Below are positions 2,441 through 54,979 of a DNA stretch of 64,000 bases, in pieces. Below the pieces are notes generated by a model that saw nothing but the letters and a program-made list of their open reading frames with translations, was not told where the DNA came from and ran no database searches. Made by a program: the position numbers and the translations under genes. Numbering within the stretch: the first letter of the stretch is position 1; the number at the start of each line of letters is the position of its first letter. This DNA comes from Pomphorhynchus laevis (taxonomy: Eukaryota > Acanthocephala > Palaeacanthocephala > Echinorhynchida > Pomphorhynchidae): NCBI GenBank assembly GCA_012934845.2, contig WNNJ02001540.1, forward strand, positions 1-64,000, written 5' to 3'.

Positions 2441-2508
2441 TTGGTTCAACCAGGACTGTATCTTACACCTATCTTCTTCTCCCCCTATATAGAGAATTTA
2501 ATGTTTCA

Positions 2509-2561
2509 GCACTGCAAGACGGCATACCGTTTCGTCTTTGATAAGCCTCAGCAGTTGCAGC
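2509..2561 (-). ncRNA. Hammerhead ribozyme, family C, copy 1
   Basis: On the minus strand: GCAA then CTGCTGA (one core change from CTGATGA), helix II GGC/GAC around TTATCAAA, GAAA, helix III ACGG/CCGT with loop TATG, cleavage site GTC, then TTGCAG pairing with the leading TGCAA. The order is that of a type I hammerhead. The core change probably inactivates this copy. Confidence 0.65.
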
Positions 2562-2750
2562 GCATACAATTTATTATTTAATTTATTATAGTGATCATTT
2601 AATGATCCCGCTGATGTCTATTATATTGAAAAGAATTCACTGCATTACATTGACTTCGAAAGCGCAAGTTACGTCATGCAATTAACATATAGTGAATTCT
2701 TTCTGCTTTAATCTATATATAGTATGTTTTTCATGTGTATGCATTGTATG

Positions 2751-2803
2751 TGCTGCAAGTGATGAGGCTTCTCCGAACCGAAACGGTATGCCGTCTTGCA
2801 GTG
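2751..2803 (+). ncRNA. Hammerhead ribozyme, family C, copy 2
   Basis: CTGCAAG and CTTGCAG close helix I with seven pairs. The core reads GTGATGA instead of CTGATGA. Helix II GG/CC, GAAA, helix III ACGG/CCGT and the GTC cleavage triplet are all present. The C3 to G change should lower or abolish cleavage. Confidence 0.7.
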
Positions 2804-3098
2804 TTGAAACTTTAAATTCTCTATATATAGAGAAGCAGATAGGTGTAATAGACAGTTCTGTTTGAATCAAATCTTTAATTTATTGATCCTCTGAGGATCC
2901 CAGGAAGCGGTAATATTTCATTTGTAATTTATTATATTGATCATTTTATAATTTCACTGATGTCTATTACATTGAAAAGAATTAACTGCATTACATTGAC
3001 TTTGAAAACGCAAGCTACGCCATGCAATTAGAATGTAGTGAATTCTGTCTGCTTTAATCTAAATATAGTATGTTTTTCATGTGCATGCATTGTATGTT

Positions 3099-3148
3099 TT
3101 GCAACTGATGAGGCTTATCAAAGCCGAAACGTTATACAGTCTTGCAGT
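3099..3148 (+). ncRNA. Hammerhead ribozyme, family C, copy 3
   Basis: TTGCAA, intact CTGATGA, helix II GGC/GCC around TTATCAAA, intact GAAA, a weakened helix III (ACGTTATACAGT), then CTTGCAG, which pairs with the leading strand. This copy has the best catalytic core of the three, but substitutions in helix III. Confidence 0.7.
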
Positions 3149-3289
3149 GTTAAACCATTAAATGTTCTATATATAGAGAAGCATATATGTGCAATAGACA
3201 TTCCTGTTAGAATCAAATCTCAAATTTATTTATTGATCATCTGAGGATCCTAGGCAGCAGTAATATTTCCTGTGTAATATATATGCATT

Positions 3290-3790
3290 GTATAGAGTGT
3301 TGCAGGGTACTCCATCATTTCAATGCTGAAGTGGTCTTATAGAGTAACATAATGACTGAAAGTCGTGAATCAAAATCCAGTCTATCAAGCAATACCATTT
3401 TCTATAAATGCCGCATTTTGTAAGAAATCCTGGATCGTTGTTTACTCAGCACATCAGTGCACCACCATTATATATGCCATATCTATAGAAATCCATCGAG
3501 TGCAGCGACAATTTAGCAACAACCTATGCCTAGTATTTAAGGATGGTCCGCACAGCAATTCGACCTGGAAAGAGTGTAAGTTTCAGTCAATTAAGCAAAA
3601 CGTCGGAAACGCCTTTATTCACAATGTCACAAGGCAACTGAGACGATCGGGGATACTTCATTCTACTGATGAGTGTTGCGGGTACTCCATAATTTTGATG
3701 CTGAAGTGGGCGTCTAGAAATAACATGGTGACTGAAAGTCGTGAATTAAAGTCCAGTTTATCAAGCAACATCATTTTCTATATATAATCA
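3290..3790 (+). repeat. Repeat D copy (permuted hammerhead segments)
   Basis: Shares long stretches with 17000-17640: GTGCAGCGACAATTTAGCAA, GATGGTCCGCACAGCAATTC, AACGCCTTTATTCACAATGT and TTCTACTGATGAGTGTTG. The open frame at 3365-3787 lies entirely inside this repeat and is not conserved as protein in the other copies, so it is not a gene. The GAAAC segment is changed here (CTGAGACGAT). Confidence 0.65.
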
Positions 3791-13167: not shown

Positions 13168-13310
13168 TATGTTTTCCTCATGAAGAGGCATAAACACCAG
13201 GCAGCATTCTATATATCCTCATCAGACTAAGAAATAGAAGGGAATTATTCTCGCAATATTTAAAGTTGCTACGTATGCCCAGTCATCCCATGTGTGACGA
13301 CAAACTTCAA

Positions 13311-13357
13311 CAACGGTATACGCGTTTCGCTCTAACGGAGCTCATCAGTACCGTGAC
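13311..13357 (-). ncRNA. Hammerhead ribozyme, family A, intact core
   Basis: Minus strand: ACGGTA pairs with TACCGT (helix I). CTGATGA, helix II GCTC/GAGC with loop CGTTA, GAAA, and then helix III reduced to the palindrome CGCG between A15.1 and U16.1, cleavage after GTA. This minimal palindromic helix III is characteristic of hammerheads in Penelope-like elements, which work best as dimers. Confidence 0.85.
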
Positions 13358-13715
13358 TTTAATAATCATCCATAGGCACCTTAACACACGCTTAAACAAT
13401 GTCTAAAGCTCGAAAAACAGAACTACCCTTAATCTGAATCATCAGAGGAAATTTAGCATAAGCTCTGTACATGGCAGTACGTATCGCGGTTTAACCATGC
13501 ATCAGGTACAATAAAATATAATTTGTTGCTACACCTGCCCTGGGACACCCAATGGTGTACTCGTAAATAAATCACTGTTTTCACCACAAGTGGGCATAAA
13601 CACTAGGCAGCATTCTATATATCCCCATCAGACTAAGAAATAGAACCGAATTATTCTAGCAATATTCAAAGTCGTTACAAATGCCGTCATCCCATGTGTG
13701 ACGACAAACTTCAAC

Positions 13716-13762
13716 AATGGTATACGCGTTTCGCTCTAACGTAGCTCATCAGTACCGTGACT
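13716..13762 (-). ncRNA. Hammerhead ribozyme, family A, second copy
   Basis: Same architecture as 13311-13357. CTGATGA, GAAA, CGCG and GTA are intact. Helix II has one changed base (GCTA/GAGC) and helix I one (ACGGTA against TACCAT). Probably weakened. Confidence 0.8.
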
Positions 13763-13989
13763 TCGAATAATGATCCATAGGCATTTTTACACGTGCTTAA
13801 ACAGTGTTTAAAGTTCGAAAAACAGAACTACTCTTAATCTGAATCATCAGAGGGAATTTAGCATAAGCTATGTGCATTACAAGGCGTATTGCAGTTTAAC
13901 CATGCATCAGGCACTAAATTTCTTTTAATAGAAATGCCGGTTTACAGGGACACTTTAAAGTGTGCAGATATATAAAATAGCAACAAATT

Positions 13990-14420
13990 ATATTTTATAC
14001 ATATGTACTTGATGTACGGATTGATCGTAAAAAGAAGAACAATAAAATAGTATATGAAGCATTTACTTTTCGAAGACCTGAATCAACAGCAATGTACCTA
14101 CACGCGTATAACAAGCACAGTTCGACTACTAAACTTGCGGTCATACAAAATGAAATTCGAAAGATAATTAAAATATCAAGTTCAGCAAATGCGAGATTTC
14201 GAGAATTAAAGAAATTGCAAATATATTTATTAGGAGGGGGTATTCTCACATGTTGATATATAAAGAAATTAGCAGGACATACACTATTCACCGCATGGAT
14301 CTTCCTAATAATAAAGAAGAGAATCAAATCGTAAATCGGTGTGTGGTTCGTTATCATCTTTCTTTACGTGATTTACAACGAAATATGTTGAGAGCATTCA
14401 AGAAAACAGGACAAAATGGA
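13990..14420 (+). pseudogene. PLE-2 RT C-terminal (thumb) remnant
   Basis: FTYVLDVRIDRK, IVYEAFTFRRPESTAMYLHA and NEIRKIIKISSSANARFREL match the post-palm LDV strand, the EAF/RKP strand and the thumb helix of Penelope-like RTs. The frame ends at a stop near 14254 and shifts to RAFKKTGQNG at about 14390. The palm with YxDD is absent. GIY-YIG domains follow on the same strand, so the parental element was of the endonuclease-bearing type. Confidence 0.75.
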
Positions 14421-14519
14421 TCACCCCAGTAGTATTTTACAGAAACTCAAGCAAAAGACGCGATATAATTAGCAGACAGTTATTATATAATGCGACTGGT
14501 AACATTAATCGACGAAATC

Positions 14520-14765
14520 AATGTCAACCTTGCAAACGACACCGATGCAAATCAAATGCCATTAAGCAATTATCGGAACACGTACGTAGTGAAACTACGT
14601 CACTTAAATACAAAATACGAACGCCCGCTACATGCCCTACCAATAACTGCGTATACGTTGCAACCTGTGCAATGTGTTGTAAGCAGTATGCCGGTGAAAC
14701 ATCAACACAATTAAGCATCAGAATAAATAATCGCCGTTGTCACACATTTAATCGACATGAATTAC
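14520..14765 (+). pseudogene. PLE-2 GIY-YIG endonuclease, first copy
   Basis: CQPCKRHRCKS gives the cysteine-rich lead, then NNCVYVATCAMCCKQYAGET and STQLSIRINNRRCHTFNRHE. The VYVATC...KQYAGET pair is the GIY-YIG equivalent in Penelope-like endonucleases, and the arginine in SIRINNRR matches the family's RxxxHR helix. Stops near 14780. No catalytic glutamate region follows. It overlaps the start of a large inverted repeat. Confidence 0.75.
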
Positions 14766-15056
14766 CTGATAGATACTGACTAATTTTCATGCCAAGTTTG
14801 AATCACACTTTAACTTGTATAGATTTATTTGGAGTGTTTGCTAAATGACGAATCTTTTTGGAATCTAAATGTGAGCAAAAATGAAACTTCAATTATAACA
14901 CTTCTTTCGTTCCATCCGATACTGAACACGATACAGACAAAGATTTGTCATTTAGCAAACACTCCAAATAAATCTATACAAGTTTAAGTGCGATTCAAAC
15001 TGAGTATGAAAATTAGTCAGTATCTATCAGGTAATTCATGTCGATTAAATGTGTGC
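14741..15056. repeat. Inverted repeat joining two GIY-YIG copies
   Basis: About 110 bases at 14741-14855 (starting TAATCGACATGAATTACCTG) return as a reverse complement at 14943-15056 with roughly 92 percent identity. The right arm abuts the second GIY-YIG copy exactly after its first cysteine motif. This is the inverted-copy structure typical of Penelope-like insertions. Confidence 0.8.
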
Positions 15057-15461
15057 CAACCGTGCATCGGCAGACGATGCAAAACTTGTGCCGTTATTGA
15101 AACTAGCACGATTGTGAAGAGCACAGTAACTAAAGGATTTGTACCGATCAAATGTATGAGTAGTTGCAAAACTTCAGGTGTAACTTATGTAGGAACATGC
15201 TTGTTATGTGGTAAGCAATACGTCGATCAAATCAAATTAGGTTTAGCAAGGAAGCTTAATGTTAGACGGTCTCGTTGTCAAGCGAATATCATAAGTGATG
15301 GTACAATAAAAAATGCAATGGAGCATCATATTATGGACTGCAATGTTAGTGATGTGAATCAACACCTTAAATTAGAAGCGACATTAATAGGTAAGCTGCA
15401 CACAAAGACAAACTCGGGGTGCAACCCTGATCATCTTTTCAGAGATCCAGAAATTTCATAG
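15040..15461 (+). pseudogene. PLE-2 GIY-YIG endonuclease, second copy
   Basis: Open frame reading CQPCIGRRCKTC, then SSCKTSGVTYVGTCLLCGKQ, YVDQIKLGLARKLNVRRSRC and a long helical part ending EATLIGKLHTKTNSGCNPDH. VTYVGTC and KQYVDQ are the GIY-YIG pair, and LEATLIGKL carries the glutamate expected in the catalytic helix. This copy looks nearly complete as a domain but lacks an RT in frame. It starts inside the inverted repeat. 15545-15590 (AAAGGCCTCTTGGCCCAAAAG) is the PLE tail. Confidence 0.8.
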
Positions 15462-15529: not shown

Positions 15530-16760
15530 ATTTTTTATAATGTTTGTGTTTGTTATAGATTATAAAAGGCCTCTTGGCCCAAAAGACATGAAATAAATGA
15601 ATTAAACAGGCATCTCCGAGAATTCGCTAACGTAGTAGCACGGGCATATACTCTTTAAACTAACAACGGACTTTCCGAATTATCCTAATTTTATTTGACA
15701 GGAATTTTGATTGATGTAGTTGTTTTCTTTCTAACAGGATCCTCTTATAGAAGACATTTTTATAATTAATTGCAGAATATGCAAAACTAAGCTCCGGTAG
15801 CTACAGAATATGAAAAGTTGTGCTTTGGAAACTAAAAAGATTTAGTTTCATAATCGTAGATGTTAACAAAAACAGGAGTTTGATTACATGCAAAGCAGAC
15901 TTCTTTATCACTCCATTGGCATAGCCTGTTTAAACTAACAACGTATTTTCGGGATCATCCTATTTTTTCAGGAGGAATTTTCATTGCTGTCATCGCTTGC
16001 TTTCTCACAGGATCCATTTATGGGATACATTTTATAATTTAATCGCAGAATGTATAAAACTGTAATTCAGATGCTAAAAAGCTTAGGTTTCGTATCCCAA
16101 AATGCCTCTAAAAACAGGAGTTTAAGTACATGCATAGCAGACTTACTTATCACTGCTAGACGAGCTGATGGTAGCCGGAAGCACTCATCAGTAGGGTGAA
16201 CTACCATCAGTCGTTTCGGATGCCTTGTGATATATTAAAAAGGCATCTCCGAGAATTTGCTGACGTAGTAGCATAGGCGTAGTTTCTTTAATCTAACAAC
16301 GTGCTTTACTGATCATTCAAATTTTATTCGGCTGGAATTTTGATTGTTGTCGTTGCTTGCGTTCTGTCAGGATCTCCTTGTAAGATACGTTTTTATCGGC
16401 TGACTTGTGATATATATTACGAAGACATCTCCGAGAATTTGTTTACGTGGTAGCATAAGCATTGCCTCTTTAAACTAACCATGTGCTTTCCGGATTATCC
16501 TAATTTTATTTGGCAGAAATTTTGATTGCTGTCGCTGCTTGCTTTCTAACAGGATCTTTTGATAGAATACATTTTTATAATTTAATTGCATAATGTGTAA
16601 AACTGTGCTTCGTGACCTAAAAAGCTTTAGTTTTATATTCGTAGATGTTTCTAAAACAGGAGTTTGATTACATGCATAGCAGACTTCCTTATCTTTGCTG
16701 TCGTTGGTTGTTTTCTCACAGGATGTTTTGAGGATATCTAATAGTAGTGTAGTATATAGT
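15530..16760 (+). repeat. PLE-2 tail repeats (direct, irregular)
   Basis: CATCTCCGAGAATT starts units at 15612, 16243 and 16424. Each unit, plus a partial one near 15900, holds TTTTATTTGGCAGGAATTTTGATTG-like text, CTAACAGGATC and AAAACAGGAGTTTGATTACA. Truncated units vary between about 180 and 330 bases. Non-coding, similar to the 3' region of a Penelope-like element amplified in tandem. Confidence 0.65.
16150..16235 (-). ncRNA. Permuted hammerhead segments, family D variant
   Basis: Minus strand order: GAAAC, then GACTGATGGTAG, TTCACCCTA, CTGATGA, GTGCTTCCGG, CTACCATCAG, TCGTC, TAGCAGTGA. The long hairpin CTGATGGTAG/CTACCATCAG differs in sequence from that of the other D copies yet still pairs. 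GTGA and TAG pair with TCAC and CTA. All hammerhead strands are present, but in non-canonical order. Confidence 0.5.
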
Positions 16761-16799: not shown

Positions 16800-17000
16800 G
16801 AGTAGACAACGCCCCAGGATTTCTTTCGAAATACGGCATTTATACTAAATGGTGTTGTTTGTTAGACTGGACTTCGATTCACGACGTTCAGTCACCATGT
16901 CACTTCTAGACGACCAATGAGTACCCGGCAACACTCATCAGTAGAATGAGGTACACACTGGTCGTTTCGGTTACCTGTGTGACATTGTGAATAAAGGCGT
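16800..17000 (-). repeat. Repeat D, inverted copy
   Basis: Reverse complement of 17100-17235 and 17460-17630. It contains GGTAACCGAAACGACC, ATTCTACTGATGAGTGTTGC and GTACTCATTGGTCGTCTAGA on the minus strand. With 17000-17235 it forms a fold-back. Confidence 0.7.
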
Positions 17001-17640
17001 TTCTGACACTCTGCTTAATTGTCTGAGGCTACGCTCTTAACCAAATCGAATTGCTATGCGTGACATCCTTAATCAAAGTCCATGACTTTGATTCACGATT
17101 CTGACAATTAAGCAAAGTGTCAGAAACGCCTTTATTCACAATCTCACACAGGCAAGTGAAACGACCAGTGAGTACTTCATTCTACTGATGAGTGTGGCCG
17201 GGTACTCATTGGTCGTCTGGAAGTGACATTGTGATTGAAAGTCGTGAAATAAAGTCCAGTCTATCAAGCAACACCATTTAGTATAAATGCCGTATTTCAT
17301 AAGAAATTCTGGACCGTTGTTTACTCAGCACATATGTGCACTACTTTTATACCTGCCGTATCCATTAAGGATCCAACGAGTGCAGCGACAATTCAGCAAC
17401 AACCTCTGCCTAGTGTTTAAAGATGGTTCGCACAGCAATTCGATCTGGTTAAGAACGTAAGCCTCAGTCAATTAAGCAAAGTGTCGGAAACGCCTTTATT
17501 CACAATGTCGCACAGTCAACCTAAACGGCCAGTGAGTACTTCATTCTACTGATGAGTGTTGCCGGTACTCATTGGTCGTCTAGAAGTGACATGGTGACTG
17601 AAAGTCGTGAATCGAAGTTCTATTAATCAGCATTATTTTG
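17000..17640 (+). repeat. Repeat D, head-to-tail pair with 364-bp period
   Basis: The motif ACGACCAGTGAGTAC...CTGATGA...GTACTCATTGGTCGTC occurs at 17161-17215 and again at 17525-17578, giving a unit of 364 bases. Between them lies the same GCAGCGACAATTCAGCAAC and GATGGTTCGCACAGCAATTC text as at 3480-3560. In the second copy GAAAC has become TAAAC. Unit size and lack of coding resemble retrozymes or PLE pseudo-LTR tandems. Confidence 0.7.
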
Positions 17641-34871: not shown

Positions 34872-35129
34872 CTATCCCGGGGATAGATTAAGTGTGGCTA
34901 ACGTAATATCTGGGTTCCAGGACGTTTTGGATGCCTCAATCAATCGTATAAATTCGTCAGTGTTTGATATGTATGAGGATACATTGTTAAGTAAAGAGGC
35001 TAGCAATGTGTTGAGATGACGGGATATTTTCTCTGTTGCTGTACCACAATTGCTTATTATTGGTCTCCCTGGGCAAGGACTTTTCCCTTTGTGAGTCTTT
35101 GGCAGGAGATAGAATCGGCCCTTCAACAA
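34872..35129 (-). pseudogene. PLE-4 RT N-terminal fragment fused to hammerhead repeat
   Basis: Minus strand reads GRFYLLPKTHKGKSPCPGRP, IISNCGTATEKISRHLNTLL and VSSYISNTDEFIRL. RFYxLPKxHK, GRPIxSxxGTxTEKIS and SYIxDTxxF are strong Penelope RT fingers motifs. The palm and thumb are deleted: the sequence runs from here straight into the endonuclease remnant on the same strand. Upstream the frame abuts repeat A exactly after TTGTTGAAG, next to its hammerhead, so a pseudo-LTR is joined directly to a 5'-truncated ORF. Confidence 0.85.
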
Positions 35130-35172
35130 CGGTATACGCGTTTCGCTCTAACGAAGCTCATCAGTACCGTGA
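35126..35172 (-). ncRNA. Hammerhead ribozyme, family A, at PLE-4 5' junction
   Basis: ACGGTA/TACCGT helix I, CTGATGA, helix II GCTT/GAGC (one wobble) with a CGTT loop, GAAA, CGCG, cleavage after GTA. Core intact. Directly upstream of the PLE-4 RT fragment on the same strand. Confidence 0.85.
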
Positions 35173-35332
35173 CTTTAATAATCATCAATAATTTAGAGCT
35201 TATGACATAATCGTTCATAATTTAGAGCATATGCTAAATTTCCTCTTATGATTCAGATTAAGGGTAGTTCTGTTTTTCGAGCTTTAGACATTGTTTAAGC
35301 GTGTGTTAAGGTGCCTATGGATGATTATTAAA

Positions 35333-35380
35333 GTCACGGTACTGATGAGCTCCGTTAGAGCGAAACGCGTATACCGTTGT
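35333..35380 (+). ncRNA. Hammerhead ribozyme, family A, reference copy
   Basis: ACGGTA pairs with TACCGT. CTGATGA, helix II GCTC/GAGC with loop CGTTA, GAAA, CGCG palindromic helix III, cleavage after GTA. Every consensus base is intact. It has the same core as 13311-13357. Confidence 0.88.
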
Positions 35381-35828
35381 TGAAGTTTGTCGTCATACAT
35401 AGGATAACTGGGCATACGTAGCGACTTTGAATATTGCGAGAATAATTCGGTTCTATTTCTTGATCTGATGAGGATATAAAGAATGCTGCCTGGTGTTTAT
35501 GCCTCTTCATGAGGAAAACAGTGATTTATTTAAGAGTACACCTTTGTGTGTCCCAGGGCAGGTGTAACAACAAATTATATTATTTATATATAATATATAT
35601 ATTAGATATATAAATTGTTGTTACACCTGCCCTGGGATACCCAATAGTGAACTTGTAAATAAATCGCTATGTTTTCATCATGAGGAGGCATAAAACACCA
35701 GGCAGCATTCTATATATCCTCATCAGACCAAGAAATATAACCAAATTATTCTCGCAATATTCAAAGTCGCTACATATGCCAGGTCATCATATGTGTGACG
35801 ACCAACTTTAACAACAGTTTATGCGTTT

Positions 35829-37275: not shown

Positions 37276-37309
37276 GAAGTTAATTAACATGACTTAAATT
37301 TTAACGCAA

Positions 37310-37600
37310 GATGAAAAAGGAATAGTAGCCGAAACCTGATGAGTATTTGCAGTAATTTAGCAGCTCTTTCATATGATCTTAATCCTTATTTGATACATCA
37401 TCTGTTATATATTAGTCAATTGATATAAATTGACTTTTATTTTAAATTTAAATTTTAAATTTTAACTTGATGTAAATATAAAATGTATAAAATCTTATAT
37501 AATTATTCATTATATAAAATTATATTATAATTAATTATATTTAATTTTTTAATTATATTTAAAAAATACGTAGACTCAGTTATCTGATCTGGATTATTTA
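37310..37600 (+). repeat. P1 3' tail, sense, degenerate motif
   Basis: TAGCCGAAACCTGATGAGTA at 37325 is a decayed structured motif. It is followed by the tail TTGATATAAATTGACTTTTA and the terminus ACGTAGACTCAGTTATCTGA at 37566. Confidence 0.7.
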
Positions 37601-38100
37601 AACTATTAAGCGAAAACGTTTTATAGATGAATAATAAACAATATGCTTTGTATTAGAATAATGTACACTAAATAATCAAATTTCATCAGAGGAAATGCGT
37701 CATTAGCGCGTATTAGCCCCGCTGCTATGTTGGGTCGAGGAATAGGGGTCGAAACTTGATAACATAGCAGTTCCTCCTGATGACCTCTAACCTTTATTCT
37801 TATACATCATCTATTATTTATTAGTCAATTTATAAAAATAACTTTTATTTAATAATGATTAAATAATAATAAAATTAATAATTCTTTATATAATGACTTA
37901 AATTCTTAGTTAGTAAGCTGACTAATAACGAAAGCTTAGATGCATCTAGAAAAATTATATTTTTGATAAAATTAAAAAAATGAAAATAACAAACAATTAT
38001 AAAAGGAAAGATCATAATAAGAATTTGAACATAGTAAATATTCAAATGCGGTATTTTTTGTGAATCTATTTTTTATAATCTGATCTGATGATAAAATATT
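37601..38100 (+). repeat. P1 3' structured motif and N-terminal scrap, sense
   Basis: 37680-37795 holds one of the cleanest motif copies: AATGCGTCATTAGCGCGTAT hairpin, CTGCTATG and CATAGCAG, TTGGGTC, GAGGAA and TTCCTC, GAAAC, CTGATGACCTCTA. From 37850 another P1 N-terminal scrap (LLISKLTNNESLDAS-like) follows. Confidence 0.7.
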
Positions 38101-38202: not shown

Positions 38203-38276
38203 CTGTATTGATCTGCAATCGTACCCGGGTCACCCGTGTTCAGGTGAGTATTCTACCACTAAACCACTAATGTAGA
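38203..38276 (-). tRNA. tRNA-like pseudogene (Gly/Val-like)
   Basis: Minus strand carries TGGTTTAGTGG, a perfect A-box and D-arm start, GTAGAATACTCACC, then a TCACC/GGTGA anticodon stem with an 8-base loop, and GACCCGGGTACGATTGC, a mutated B-box and T-arm. Acceptor ends pair poorly and the T-stem is broken, so this is a decayed tRNA or tRNA-derived SINE head rather than a working tRNA. Identity is uncertain. Confidence 0.5.
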
Positions 38277-38283
38277 CAAATCA

Positions 38284-39020
38284 AATCAGCTAACTGAGTC
38301 TACGCATTTAATTTAATGATAAAATAAACAAAACATAATAATGCTAAATCAAAATTTAATAATTAAATAATAAAATTAATAATTGTTTTTAGATTTTCAA
38401 TAATTTAAATCAAGTTAAAATAAAAAATTAAAATTCAAAATAAACGTCATTTTTATGAATTGAGTAATAAATAACAGACGTTGTATCAGAATAAGAATTA
38501 GAGGTCATCAGGAGGAACTGCTATGATATCAGGTTTCGACACCTAACTCCTCTACCCAACATAGCAGTGGGGCCAAATACATACTAATGATGTATTTCCT
38601 CTGATAAAACTATCTAGTATCTTATTCTAATACAAAGGATATTATTTATTATCCATCCATAAAAATTTGCCACTTAAGAGTTTAAATTTATTCTTTATAT
38701 TATTGTGTTGATTTATATATTTTACTATTTTCTGCTTGATGTTATTTTTATAGTAACCTAGTTTAAAATATGTATCTATTAAATTATTTAAATGATTTTG
38801 AAGAAAGCCAATATCATTACAAATTGTTGCAATTCTTAAAATTTCATTATTTAATGTATTATATTTTATATTATATTGTATGCATGAATGCTCATGCAAA
38901 AATATGTATCTTGTAAATTTAAATATGCCATCTTTACGATATAAATTAAAAGTAGTTTTAATTGATGTAAATTTAATATTCATATCTAGATATATACCTT
39001 TATATATCTAGATATATACC
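38284..39020 (-). pseudogene. P1 C-terminus and complete 3' tail
   Basis: From right to left: P1 frame 38983-38642 with MNIKFTSIKTTFNLYRKDGI, FKFTRYIFLHEHSCIQYN, the ILRIATICNDIGFLQNHLNN thumb, KQKIVKYINQHN and the end SGKFLWMDNK before TAA. Then comes the region ATCAGAGGAAATACATCATT, the structured motif (38590-38490), the AT-rich tail, and the terminus ACTGAGTCTACG at 38290. This is the clearest view of a full P1 3' end. No GIY-YIG domain lies between thumb and stop. Confidence 0.85.
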
Positions 39021-41879: not shown

Positions 41880-42235
41880 TGTAATAGAATAAGATACTAG
41901 ATAGTTTTATTAGAGGAAATACATCATTAGCATTTATTTGGCCCCGCTGCCATGTTTGGCAGAGGGGTTAGGGGCCGAAACCTGATAACATAGCAGTTCC
42001 TCCTGATGACCTCTAATCCTTATTCTGATACAGCGTATGCTATTTATTAGTCAATTCATAAAAATTGATTTTTATTTTTAATTTCATTTTATAATTCATC
42101 TTGATATAAATTATATAAAATCTTATAACAATTATTTATTATTAATTAATTTTTTATTATTTAACTATTTAACTTTTATTTTGCATTATTTTTAATTTGC
42201 AATATAAAATACGTAGGCTCAGTTAGCTTATTTGA
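41880..42235 (+). repeat. P1 3' tail, sense, well preserved
   Basis: From TAGAATAAGATACTAGATAG through the hairpin arm, GGCCCCGCTGCCATG, GGGGTTAGGGGCC, GAAAC, CATAGCAGTTCCTC, CTGATGACCTCTAATCC, the AT tail and the terminus ACGTAGGCTCAGTTAGCT at 42211. CCTCTAATCC pairs with GGGTTAGGGG over ten positions with two wobbles. Confidence 0.75.
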
Positions 42236-46149: not shown

Positions 46150-46500
46150 AGTTGTACAAAATTAATATTATTTAATATTATTAATATTATTTTTATAAAT
46201 TAAAAATAATGATATATAAAAATATAATAATTAAATTATAAATAATAAATAATTATAAATAATTTTAAATAATTGTTATAACATTTTATATAATTTACTT
46301 CAATTTAAAATCAAAATCAATTTTTATGAATTGACTAATATAAATAATAGACGATGTATCAGAATAAGGATTAGAGGTCATCAGGAGGAACTGCTATGCT
46401 ATCAAGTTTCGGCTCCTAACTCCTCTACCCAACATAGCATTATTCCTGGACGGGACATAACAGCAAAGCCAAATACATGACAATGAATATTATTTATTTT
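46150..46500 (-). repeat. P1 3' tail, antisense
   Basis: AT tail, AATTTTTATGAATTGACTAA, GATGTATCAGAATAAGGATT, and a motif reading GGTCATCAGGAGGAACTGCT, ATGCTATCAAGTTTCGGCTC and CTAACTCCTCTACCCAACAT. The minus strand keeps CTGATGA, GAAAC, GAGGAG/TTCCTC and CATAGCAG. A terminus-like ACTGAGTTACAT is at 46570. Confidence 0.7.
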
Positions 46501-51480: not shown

Positions 51481-53046
51481 GTTAATGAACAGTTTAAAGC
51501 AAATATGTTGAACAATATATTTATAAATATATTTTTAATATAAGGGATATATCCTTTCTATTAAAGGATACATTTATATATTTAATCATATATTAAAGCA
51601 AATCATAAGATCTGACGTAGTTTTAGTGGGACATAAATATTGCTAGATTCATGATGATATATTTTATTATAATTATATTAATCAATAATTATTTACATTT
51701 TGCCAGCTAAATAATCACATTTAAGTAATAACGGATTAGGGGATTATTATCTTTTCTACTTAAATGTGTGTTTTTATAAATTCTAACTTGAAAACATCTG
51801 TAAAATCATACACTTTCATGAAGATAAATATTATCTATTGCACTATCAAAAAACGCGGCAATTTGAAATTTTAGTAAAATTGTAGATAATACATTACATA
51901 TATGACACAAATGTGGATCAATTTATAACAACGCATATTAGTGATTATATTTTTGTAATATAATATTTGTAATATTTTTATACATTTATAATAATTAAAA
52001 AAATTAAAACGCAAATTCAAAATGTACATGAAATGTACATTTTTTATTAAAATGTATATTTTTTAATTGTACATTTTTTATGTAATCATTTAATTCAAAG
52101 AGTTGAATGAACTGTAAAAAGCTGATATTATAATTTTTCCATTATCAGATTGATTCTTTATTGAAGTTAAAAAAATTACCAAATACAAACAAGCAACCAT
52201 ATCTGCTTAAGTTGCCTTCAACTTGAATAAAAATAATAAGGATGAACAGCTATAAATTGGTAGGATAGCACAATTCAAGAAAACTATGCTCCTACCTTGT
52301 CAAGATTACAAATTTACAATTTTCTGGATTTGTTGACCCTGCTCTTCTAATGATCTAACATCTTTGTATAGGTTCAAAGAGGAAAACGTTTCTATTCGAG
52401 ATGCTTTCAATCCAAAACTTTTCTATTTACTTAATCTGTTTAGTGCAGTTAGTATCCCCGAGACAAAATTCAAATATATATAATTTATATATATTTATAA
52501 AAATCTGGGAATTTATTTATCCATTGTTTGGCTTAACAATTGCATGGATATTAGTTGGTTTGGGTCAAGGGTGTCGGTAAGGTCAATAGCTAACAAATCG
52601 ATGTGCTTGAGTGACAATTTGGAAAGGACGGGGCAATGAAACAAAGGAGAAATAGGTGAACATTAGATGTGACTAAATATACAACGTCAATAATTCGAAC
52701 GATCGTGGAATGGGATACTGATTATGTCAACCTTATCATAGAAAATATCGACAATTGAGACAATATTTTAAAATGTTTCGATTTTCGCAAACGTTGTTTC
52801 GACCTTCGTCAGTAAATTGTAGTTAATTGAAATTAACTACAGAAATTTCCACAACGAGAAATTCATTGGAAATTTCTGACTGCTTAACATTGACCGGCAA
52901 AGGTCGAATCAACTTTGTATATTGACATAATATTTAATATAATGCCAATAATAATTATGTAATGATATAAAAATATATAAATTTTATTAAAATAAAAATT
53001 AGGAAGATCATATAAGTTTAATCTAAAACAAAATTTCAATTTTAAG
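51481..53046. other. Intron of the Ig gene
   Basis: Contains low-complexity AT, TGTACATTTTTTATTAAAATGTA palindromes near 52025 and an antisense PLE fragment (52200-52860). Confidence 0.6.
52200..52860 (-). pseudogene. PLE N-terminal scrap with hammerhead-like leader
   Basis: Minus strand, 5' to 3': ACTGACGAAGGTCGAAACAA at about 52820-52795 places a CTGACGA and a GAAAC close together, as in PLE leaders, although helix II is too short to be convincing. Further on, RIETFSSLNLYKDVRSLEEQ and GQQIQKIVNL resemble the coiled N-terminal region before Penelope RTs. RT not present. Inserted antisense in the Ig gene intron. Confidence 0.4.
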
Positions 53047-53406
53047 ATGAAACTGAAACTTTGTCTGAGGAAAAACGAAACCGGCTTAACTTTAAAGCAA
53101 ATATGGATGCTAACAGCACAAAGAATCTAAGTCCATACTTTATCCGTAAACCCAAGCACGCAACAGTGAAGCCTGGAGAACCAGCTCGATTTATGTGTTC
53201 ATGGATCGGGTATCCAAAGCCCGAGGTGTCATGGTATCTTCATGATGTACAGCTAAAGAACGACAATAGAACTAGGATTAAAGAGATAAACAGCAAGTGC
53301 TATCTAGAATTAGAGGATATAGCAGTGGAAGAATCAGGAACAGTTAAATGTGTGATATCTAATCCGTTGGGCAAGTCAGAAGTGTACGTTCAACTGATTG
53401 TTCAAG
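53047..53406 (+). CDS. Ig-domain protein, I-set domain exon
   Basis: Exon of 360 bases, phase 1 in and out, between CAATTTTAAG and GTAATG. After a charged lead (ETETLSEEKRNRLNFKANMD) it encodes a full I-set Ig domain: SPYFIRKPKHATVKPGE, ARFMCSW (first Cys), KPEVSWYL (core Trp), then LELEDIAVEESGTVKCVISN (second Cys), and NPLGKSEVYVQLIV. Sequence style is that of intracellular muscle Ig domains (titin, twitchin, palladin, MLCK). Tyr of the usual DSGxYxC is Val here. The frame continues in the exon at 62930. Confidence 0.88.
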
Positions 53407-54979
53407 GTAATGAAAATATATAGACGTTGCATATTTGATAGCTCTCCGTAATTTAAAGAATAAATTCTAATAACATCATAAATTTAGATGATTTTATAAA
53501 TTTGACAATAAATTCAGCGTTTCAAAAGTCCGTGCAATAATTTAAATAATATATTATTTATTAAATTTTAAGAAAGAGTGATGAGTAACCAAAGAAATCA
53601 GTTACCGTAAATTTCTTAGTGTGTAAACATCTAATGAATTAAATACGATTTAAAAATGTAATGAGTCAGGTTAACAGAAAGGATAACGATATACAGAACT
53701 AAGAAACCAGATGATTGCTTTTAAATTGTTGAAAAGTGGCGTTTGAAGACAGGGTATGTGAAATAAGAACACCCTTAATAGATTAATTAATAATTAATTA
53801 AAAAATTAATTAATAAATAAAGAATAATTAAATAATAAAAGAGATAAAATAATATATTCAAGTAAGAGTTCGTTTTTAAATTAATTTCGTATTTAAAACG
53901 AAATTAAATATCAAAATTTAAATATCTTAATATTCAATTAAAATATTGTTTATTAGTCAATTCATAAAAATTGATTTTTATTTTAAATATTTACTTTATA
54001 GGTTGACTTTATATAAACTTTATATATTATATATTATATTAATATTAATATTAATTATAAAAAATAATTATAATTAAATATTAATTAATATATTATATTA
54101 TATTGATATTTAATATATTATATTATATTTATATATTATAGGTTGTCAACTAAATCAGTATAAGTTGCATAATATGTTATAATTATTAATTAATTATAAT
54201 TCATTTAAATTCATATATATTATGTAGGAATAAAATACCAAGAATATAGTCTTAATTCGACCATGTCAATGGTTATTAATAGTTATTAATAACTATGATT
54301 GACCTGTTGTTATGCAGGGTTGGGTTATAATTATTTATTATTTATCTTTATTTTTAAATTATGTATGGTAATTTATTTTTTAAATTTAATTTTCTAGCAA
54401 TTTATTTTGAATTTAAATTCATATATATTATGTAGAAATAAAATACCAAGAATATAGTCTTAATTCGACTATGTCAATAGCTAAGATTAATAGTTATTAA
54501 TAACTAAGATTGGCCCGTTCTTATGCAGGGTTGGTGCATATGTTATCGAAAACCCGCTAACACAGAAGTTGCTCCTGATCACCACTATTTTTTGTTCGAA
54601 TACGTCGTATATTATTTATTAGTCAATTCGAAAAGATTGATTTTTATTTTAAATGTAAACTTTACATAAATATAAAATCTCTTATAATTATTTATTATTT
54701 ATAATAAGTAATTTTATTTATAATTTAATAAAACTTTTATAGTAATTAATTTTTAATTCAAATACGTAGACACAGTAAACTAATCTGTTTTATACATTAT
54801 GCTAAACATGGTCAATCGATAACTATTATGAATTCAAACTTAATGCATTTTTATTGGTAAAAAATATTTCCGAACAAAAATCCAATTTTTAAAATAGTCA
54901 AAGTAATTTGTAGTCAAAATAGTCAAACTCAATTATTTTGATTCAATATCAAAATATAGTATAAAATTTAGATAGGCAT
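53407..54979. other. Start of 9.5-kb intron, repeats
   Basis: AT-rich with a sense P1-like tail near 53940-54010 (TTAGTCAATTCATAAAAATT). It is followed by the duplicated segment described separately and a sense P1 tail end at 54590-54780 with terminus ACGTAGACACAGTAAACT. Confidence 0.6.
54206..54540. repeat. Tandem duplication of about 120 bp, period near 207
   Basis: ATTCATATATATTATGTAGG to TTATGCAGGGTTGG occurs at 54206-54326 and, with a handful of changes, at 54414-54531. The second copy is followed by a partial P1 motif (TTATCGAAAACCCGCTAACA, GTTGCTCCTGATCACC). Confidence 0.8.

Follow-up and report, generated by a model that had tools for sequence, protein, structure and literature searches.

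Natural hammerhead ribozymes whose blocks stand in the non-circular orders SGC, CSG and GCS were described by Eckert et al. 2023 (PMC10085705). In the parts of that paper used here, five SGC sequences were cut at the predicted site, and in one of them all four stems were proved by disruption and rescue. The single GCS sequence, from Caballeronia peredens, showed partial cleavage in vitro, and the same text leaves its relevance open because it has no covariation. Apart from this sequence, none of the permuted RNAs is placed there in the genome of a known organism. In the literature that we searched, which held few subscription papers and no bioRxiv, this was the only source on type-SGC or type-GCS hammerheads, and no permuted hammerhead of an animal was found. 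The hammerheads of Penelope-like elements (PLEs), in the available text on Anolis (PMC11167929), are canonical in order and sit in or at the pseudo-LTR; that of Anolis Poseidon cleaves only with protein, and RNA-seq reads of the Anolis element neither start nor end at the hammerhead site. Metazoan retrozymes, as far as the text used goes, are non-autonomous repeats with a type I hammerhead (PMC7229834).

Here we analyse a window of 64,000 nucleotides, the whole stretch examined from the acanthocephalan Pomphorhynchus laevis (contig WNNJ02001540.1, positions 1 to 64,000), together with other loci of the same genome. A preliminary description of the window had proposed an undescribed split or trans hammerhead in the tails of a repeat called P1. 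P1 shares with the type-SGC RNAs (HRIMA-1 and its variants) the S-G-C order, the core letters and strands of stems I and II that are linked directly or nearly so. Unlike them, it resides in an animal retroelement, carries C-C at 10.1/11.1 and a pair of additional bases ahead of GAAA, and has no I-II interaction stem that we could see; covariation and cleavage are documented for HRIMA-1 and its variants, which the parts of the paper used here report as absent from the genomes of known organisms (PMC10085705). Like the hammerheads of PLEs, such as Anolis Poseidon, P1 belongs to a GIY-YIG/RT element that occurs in tandem copies, and is located in or at its pseudo-LTR; theirs are canonical in the text available, whereas P1 has the S-G-C order only (PMC11167929). 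A second group of repeats has the G-C-S order of the Caballeronia candidate. The latter, partly cleaved in vitro, is one sequence without covariation in the text cited, whereas here several animal repeat families have paired changes in all three predicted stems (PMC10085705). These families resemble metazoan retrozymes in being non-autonomous repeats with a putative hammerhead, and differ in its order, GCS instead of the type I reported there (PMC7229834).

The genome thus holds convincing candidates for non-circularly permuted hammerheads. Our main reading, to which we give a probability of about 0.7, is that the P1 tail is the structured apex of a pseudo-LTR, with an RNA that most likely folds as a long rod, and that the better-supported permuted hammerheads of this genome are of type GCS and lie in retrozyme-like tandem repeats.

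The element that carries P1

P1 is the pseudo-LTR of an intact and abundant Penelope-like element. The sequence TTCCTCCTGATGACCTCTA occurs exactly 2523 + 2563 times in the 249-Mb genome, so P1 is a real repeat, and thousands of further copies hold parts of its three hammerhead-like strands. At one locus (L014), a stop-to-stop open reading frame of 908 aa shows by eye YIDD and a GIY-YIG-like motif near its N-terminus. The Pfam search of this frame itself returned no match at E up to 1; among 14 homologs some match PF01541, PF00078 or PF26215, the first two of which we take to be GIY-YIG and RVT_1. The N-terminal endonuclease is, we presume, reminiscent of the permuted-domain PLE clade. Among eight fetched regions upstream of the 5' part of the element, four hold a whole tail in tandem, three start inside the apex and one starts after it; on this basis the P1 tail is a pseudo-LTR. 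Head-to-tail copies lie about 3.5 kb apart at L014, with further tandems among the fetched upstream regions. Identity is 99-100% in every one of the 40 matches to the 5' part that were scored, and the element has therefore been active recently. Hence an RT plus GIY-YIG, pseudo-LTRs and tandem copies, the features by which a Penelope-like element is recognised, are all found in P1. In the copy at 38490 the outer helix described below begins some 30 nt after the end of the RT frame.

Two other observations concern the neighbourhood. A tRNA-like sequence, seen by eye (CATTAGTGGTTTAGTGGTAGAATACTC...), lies 3' of a P1 copy at about 38210-38275 (-) of the window, and the reading frames at 14372-15461 (+) resemble by eye GIY-YIG endonucleases that belong to another Penelope family. 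The window also contains an I-set immunoglobulin exon at 53046-53423.

Hammerhead-like blocks of P1

The preliminary description had placed three hammerhead strands at 37680-37795 in the order C-B-A. All three are there, at 37722-37789 (+), and correspond to blocks S, G and C (Table 1). Their presence in P1 copies exceeds chance. In 200,000 dinucleotide shuffles, made from two tail consensuses typed by hand, three stems totalling at least 16 pairs never arose; 1531 of these shuffles had retained both tokens. We also used a block scanner that looks for CUGAnGA, GAAA and U-H in whichever of the six orders, demands 4 or more pairs in each of three stems and tolerates a stem II offset of at most 2 bases. 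Over 10 Mb of random sequence, matched in composition to the 200 nt surrounding the P1 apex, it made 11 matches in any order; the best scored 27, whereas the two typed consensuses scored 41 and 47. Both the shuffle and the random models are without evolved self-complementarity. At the same offset, S-G-C was the sole arrangement that the scanner gave within the 1 kb surrounding the P1 pseudo-LTR. No canonical hammerhead was found elsewhere in P1 (L014 3300-7400, both strands, offset of at most 1), and the Rfam search gave no hammerhead in P1. A search for DNA relatives, by one exact pattern each in viral contigs and in prokaryote contigs, gave 0 matches, and per-position conservation is near neutral and uninformative.

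The SGC core set, CUGAnGA, GAAA, U16.1-A15.1 and H17, is present. Over 99 full-tail copies U16.1 is T in 92, and H17 is A in 74, C in 19, T in 5 and G in 1; in the reported copy the predicted H17 is C37736. The other copies named in the preliminary description do have the blocks, with damage: TTTGGC stands in place of the needed TTGGGT in the 41925 copy, which has thus lost U16.1, and helix II has one mismatch each in the copies at 38490 (GGTG) and 46370 (GGAG). The two bases that it had noticed between helix II and GAAA are indeed a feature of the repeat. This unpaired pair is CC in 76/99 and TC in 11/99 full-tail copies, so that stem II is not stacked directly on the core, and C-C stands at 10.1/11.1 in the consensus. 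In the TC copies, among them that at 37680, TC is able to pair with G8-A9 of CTGATGA (GACCTCTA/TAGGGGTC). The preliminary description errs in saying that a hammerhead is never C-B-A, and the order is neither new nor impossible in cis: it is that of the published type-SGC hammerheads, which cleave in cis in vitro according to the parts of the report used here (Eckert et al. 2023, PMC10085705). Its hammerhead blocks, their non-cyclic order and the Penelope lineage stand; the word undescribed has to go.

In P1-derived repeats at L062, L071 and 37305-37400 of the window, CATATGA replaces CTGATGA; these repeats start at or near GAGGAATAG, and L062 has two copies 131 bp apart. In the P1 dimer at L063 the upstream part stops at the predicted H17, with ...GTTGGATC, and is joined to AAATTTAATC; this junction is ambiguous because ATC is a shared microhomology.

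Table 1. Features of the window and stems of two GCS copies from elsewhere in the genome
Feature	Positions	Strand	Sequence or basis
Canonical hammerhead, Hammerhead_HH9-like	2500-2563	-	Rfam E 8.7e-4, below gathering score
Canonical hammerhead, Hammerhead_HH9-like	2741-2818	+	Rfam E 0.37, below gathering score
Canonical hammerhead, Hammerhead_HH9-like	3089-3164	+	Rfam E 4.5e-6, below gathering score
F4 GCS-related copy, longer stem III arm, GAGA for GAAA (decayed)	3626-3742	+	sequence, homology
F1 GCS copy, stem II pairs 5/7	16134-16242	-	sequence, homology
Candidate type-GCS hammerhead, F3, well formed	16881-16993	-	GGTAAC-C-GAAA-CGACCAGTG..., TTCTA-CTGATGA-G-T-GTTGCC, ...TTGGTCGT-C-TAGAA
F3 GCS copy, partly decayed stem II	17134-17244	+	sequence, homology
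F3 GCS copy, TAAA for GAAA, expected dead	17498-17607	+	sequence, homology
Rival outer helix of P1, 5' strand	37683-37694	+	TCATCAG-AGGAA; partner 37771-37783
Side hairpin of P1	37695-37713	+	ATGCG...CGCGTAT (main subfamily ATACAT/ATGTAT); covariation
Candidate pseudoknot of P1, 5' strand	37715-37720	+	AGCCCC, with GGGGTC 37745-37750; helix energies
P1 block S (strand C)	37722-37742	+	CTGCTATG/TTGGGT/C/GAGGAA: stem III 3' strand CTGCTATG-TTGGGT, stem I 5' strand GAGGAA
P1 block G (strand B)	37743-37770	+	stem II 3' strand TAGGGG, two extra bases TC, GAAA, stem III 5' strand ACTTGA-TAA-CATAGCAG
P1 block C (strand A)	37771-37789	+	TTCCTC (stem I 3' strand), CTGATGA, CCTCTA (stem II 5' strand)
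P1 pseudo-LTR copy	38490-38610	-	Penelope RT C-terminus (38642-39007 -) just upstream
P1 copy, U16.1 lost	41925-42018	+	sequence
P1 copy, one stem II mismatch	46370-46480	-	sequence
Predicted stems of F2' (L177)			II GACCC/GGGTC; III ACGT/GCGT plus GTCTGGG/CCCAGAC; I CTGCT/AGCAG
Predicted stems of F2 (L195)			II GGTCC/GGACC; III ACAC/GTGT plus GCGTAGG/CCTACGC; I CAGTG/CACTG

The fold of the P1 RNA

The P1 RNA most likely folds as a long rod. This rod would have outer inverted arms, an outer helix of TCAG-AGGAA on TTCCT-CTGA that buries CTGATGA, and the side hairpin ATACAT/ATGTAT; it would also include the hairpin CTGCTATG/CATAGCAG, with a possible pseudoknot between its loop GGGGCC and GGCCCC. 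The nested fold has z = -5.0, with 0/200 shuffles as stable. SGC stems I and II come to -5.7 to -6.7 kcal/mol, whereas outer helix and pseudoknot are each worth -12 to -15 kcal/mol; the side hairpin on its own is weak (-2.7 kcal/mol), and the predicted nested minimum free energy structure of P1 subfamily a is without the CTGCTATG and ATACAT hairpins.

The mutation record leans towards such a different fold over the hammerhead. Covariation of helices I to III, to which the preliminary description had looked for support, did not appear: over 99 full-tail copies and 500 shuffles, a model that does not include the relatedness of the copies, SGC stems I, II and III have 1, 0 and 0 two-sided cells, no better than the shuffles. 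The rival hairpin has 13 such cells (0/500 shuffles as high), of which 11 are at one pair and may be one inherited change, and the rival outer helix has 7 over 4 pairs (0/500). Covariation is weak in the pseudoknot, with shuffles as high in 25/500 (per cent paired) and 227/500 (two-sided cells), and in the rod arms (2/500 and 37/500). As the P1 stems hardly vary between subfamilies, missing SGC covariation is weak evidence, and P1 covariation as a whole is moderate evidence, since shuffles ignore relatedness and invariant pairs are uninformative.

The ends of the elements were also considered. Of 164 P1 copies, 91 extend to the full tail and 73 are truncated, with 5' breaks from -24 to +20 of the predicted cut in 44, further upstream in 17 and further downstream in 12. 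There is no peak of 5' ends at the predicted H17 in the 164 copies (one at position 0, one at -1, six at +2 to +4, ten at -12 to -7), and breaks inside block G are hidden because 88 of the 164 were chosen by an exact 20-base match to that block. The missing peak is not decisive; the Anolis hammerhead site, in the text available, is likewise unmarked by RNA-seq read ends (PMC11167929). We rejected an HDV-like reading of the P1 pseudoknot, which has by eye the same P1-P2 topology: the letters of an HDV-like active site could not be seen, and the G of GGCCCC, at +22, coincides with none of the 5' breakpoints, the nearest being +20 in one copy.

How, then, should the blocks be understood? The alternative that survives best, plausible though short of even odds, is that purine-rich and pyrimidine-rich stretches are retained for the sake of rod and pseudoknot and fall into this arrangement by coincidence. 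The rod helices account for CTGATGA, TTCCTC, CATAGCAG and GGGGCC, and such covariation as exists sits in them; against this, the arrangement is absent from the shuffles and random sequence, models that have no evolved self-complementarity, and the rod leaves two features unexplained, GAGGAA exactly after GGGT-H and GAAA between its two strands. It is unlikely that P1 works as a type-SGC hammerhead and cuts itself in cis after H17, possibly in need of its own bound protein, for which Anolis Poseidon gives a precedent in the text available (PMC11167929). The gap of two bases between stem II and GAAA and the C-C at 10.1-11.1, the want of any I-II interaction stem by eye (bases 5' of TTCCTC and 3' of CCTCTAA), a distal stem III arm that runs into stem I with a linker of zero, SGC stems without covariation, the burial of CTGATGA and TTCCTC by competing helices and the lack of a peak of 5' ends at H17 all weigh against such activity, even if the core letters are kept (H17 not G in 98/99, U16.1 in 92/99), stems I-III pair, the scores, 41-47, lie above the 27 that 10 Mb of random sequence gave at best, the arrangement is the only one that the scanner gives in 1 kb around the pseudo-LTR, where PLE hammerheads sit, and stem III is in two parts like that of the GCS families (by eye). 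That strands from two copies or molecules form a canonical hammerhead (a nested type III, in which G comes from the unit after the one that supplies S and C) is very improbable, for even though head-to-tail P1 tandems about 3.5 kb apart exist at L014 and elsewhere, the stem II defect is the same, the stems do not covary and a 3.5-kb loop or a second molecule would be required. The S-G-C blocks of P1 are thus real, yet they make up a candidate or relic type-SGC ribozyme; that it is a working fold is doubtful, and the rod is favoured.

Tandem repeats with candidate type-GCS hammerheads

In 260 kb of the genome the scanner made 15 matches in P1-like sequence (14 SGC, 1 GSC) and 13 outside it: five CGS, two SCG and six GCS. 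Several of the CGS matches arise because the scanner lets the two strands of a palindromic stem III overlap. The six GCS matches score 31-40, whereas 10 Mb of random sequence gave three, the best at 27. Their order is stem II'-GAAA-III, then I'-CUGAUGA-II, then III'-H-I. The candidates fall into four or more tandem families, the unit measuring about 355-400 bp: F1 (L020 6046 and 6402; repeat period of 360 bp on C87), F2 (L013 and L016; unit about 370 bp), F3 (16881-16993 of the window, with copies at 17134 and 17498, 364 bp apart), F4, related to F3 (3581-3742 of the window; unit 377 bp), and F2' (L017 and L023; unit 396 bp), which was found via homology to F2. A first look at the genome gives 1145 candidates for F1, 1060 for F2, 1066 for F3, 1527 for F2' and 635 for F4, counts that are not confirmed copy numbers because only about 40 per family were scored. 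The match at 3581-3742 has a GAAA that is not the homologous one of F3/F4, and may be fortuitous. Fifteen of 20 further copies fetched from these families are GCS matches of the scanner; the five misses are all F4, and two other F4 copies matched. Consensus-like copies of F1, F2, F2' and F3 have the core letters and G-C at 10.1-11.1; F1b has G-U there, and older copies are decayed. Two F3 units stand head-to-head inverted at 16881-17244, with a weak Rfam match to MIR2606 between them (40.4 bits, gathering score 139.7).

Canonical hammerheads are present in the same window. The two plus-strand HH9-like copies of Table 1 lie inside a 346-bp tandem repeat at 2579-3282. Over the whole window no Rfam family reached its gathering score, and the only hammerheads that permissive Rfam scans of two stretches returned were the canonical copies. 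Type I hammerhead-like units were seen at 13291-13373 (-) and 13695-13777 (-), in a 405-bp tandem at 13187-13918, and at 35107-35189 (-) and 35317-35399 (+); their stem III is the palindrome ACGCGT, and a first look gives 1910 candidates genome-wide. A palindromic stem III is expected of hammerheads that cleave as dimers.

Compensatory changes in the predicted GCS stems

The predicted stems I, II and III of F1, F2, F2' and F3 have changed in matching pairs. Between F2 and F2', a single comparison of two lineages with pairs entered by hand and the stem I register set by hand, 9 of 21 pairs have two-sided changes (II 2, III 4, I 3), one has a one-sided change and none is broken. Between F1 and F3, in a register also set by hand and omitting the bulged base of F1 stem III and that of stem II, 25 pairs include 7 two-sided changes (II 1, III 5, I 1) and one one-sided. 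F1, F2 and F3 were selected for paired stems and F2' was not; as F2' came from homology to F2 and not from the scanner, its pairing is an independent test. A tool count over stems II and III of F2/F2' (MAFFT alignment, 11 copies, 10 distinct, 500 shuffles) found 91.7% of cells paired (26-39% after sliding by one to three columns), two-sided cells numbering 23 where shuffles have 9.0, and a covariation score of 0.395 against 0.225 (0/500 as high). Pairs with a two-sided change (6 against 4.4, 36/500 as high) and further pair types (500/500 as high) are not above shuffles. Stem I is outside this count because the aligner misplaced a 2-base gap. The evidence for the type-GCS candidates as permuted hammerheads is therefore stronger than that for P1, and the general idea of the preliminary description, that this genome has permuted hammerheads, is well supported by these other repeats.

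Discussion

From the observed blocks, their order, the stems, candidate copy numbers, tandem periods and compensatory changes we infer catalysis and a biological role for the GCS families. Each unit of a multimeric transcript would fold into a permuted hammerhead core, with predicted cleavage after H17, a C in F1, F3 and F2' and an A in F2, so that multimeric transcripts would be cut into unit-length RNAs. Once made, these RNAs of about 355-400 nt could form circles that a retroelement enzyme copies, the model proposed for retrozymes. GCS stems II, III and I cross one another, and with linkers of 1-4 nt they raise the same steric question as P1. The blocks might instead form canonical nested type-I hammerheads across neighbouring units, C of one with G and S of the next, a fold that needs no pseudoknot, that suits tandem units and in which the same stems would covary. 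We find this improbable, as some 75-80 nt of one unit take in all three blocks and those short linkers, block C stands exactly inside the stem III hairpin, and single units would be unable to cleave.

It is probable that we have here an animal nuclear genome with active type-GCS hammerheads in several tandem families and thousands of candidate copies, which would be the first GCS set with covariation and the first non-circular permutations of an animal in the literature searched, P1 possibly adding a further SGC case. Taken alone, P1 as an SGC case inside an autonomous Penelope element has a low probability. The C-B-A order itself is already known, and the GCS families are a fresh variant of recently described permuted hammerheads. 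In the literature searched, non-circular RNA permutations have so far come from one 2023 paper, with no SGC or CSG in the genome of a known organism and GCS in one sequence, to judge from the parts available. If the GCS families are what they seem, the fact that an animal has them in abundance, next to canonical hammerheads housed in tandem repeats of a similar kind, would bear on how the strands of a ribozyme reorder while its core stays, and standard hammerhead models would be missing whole classes.
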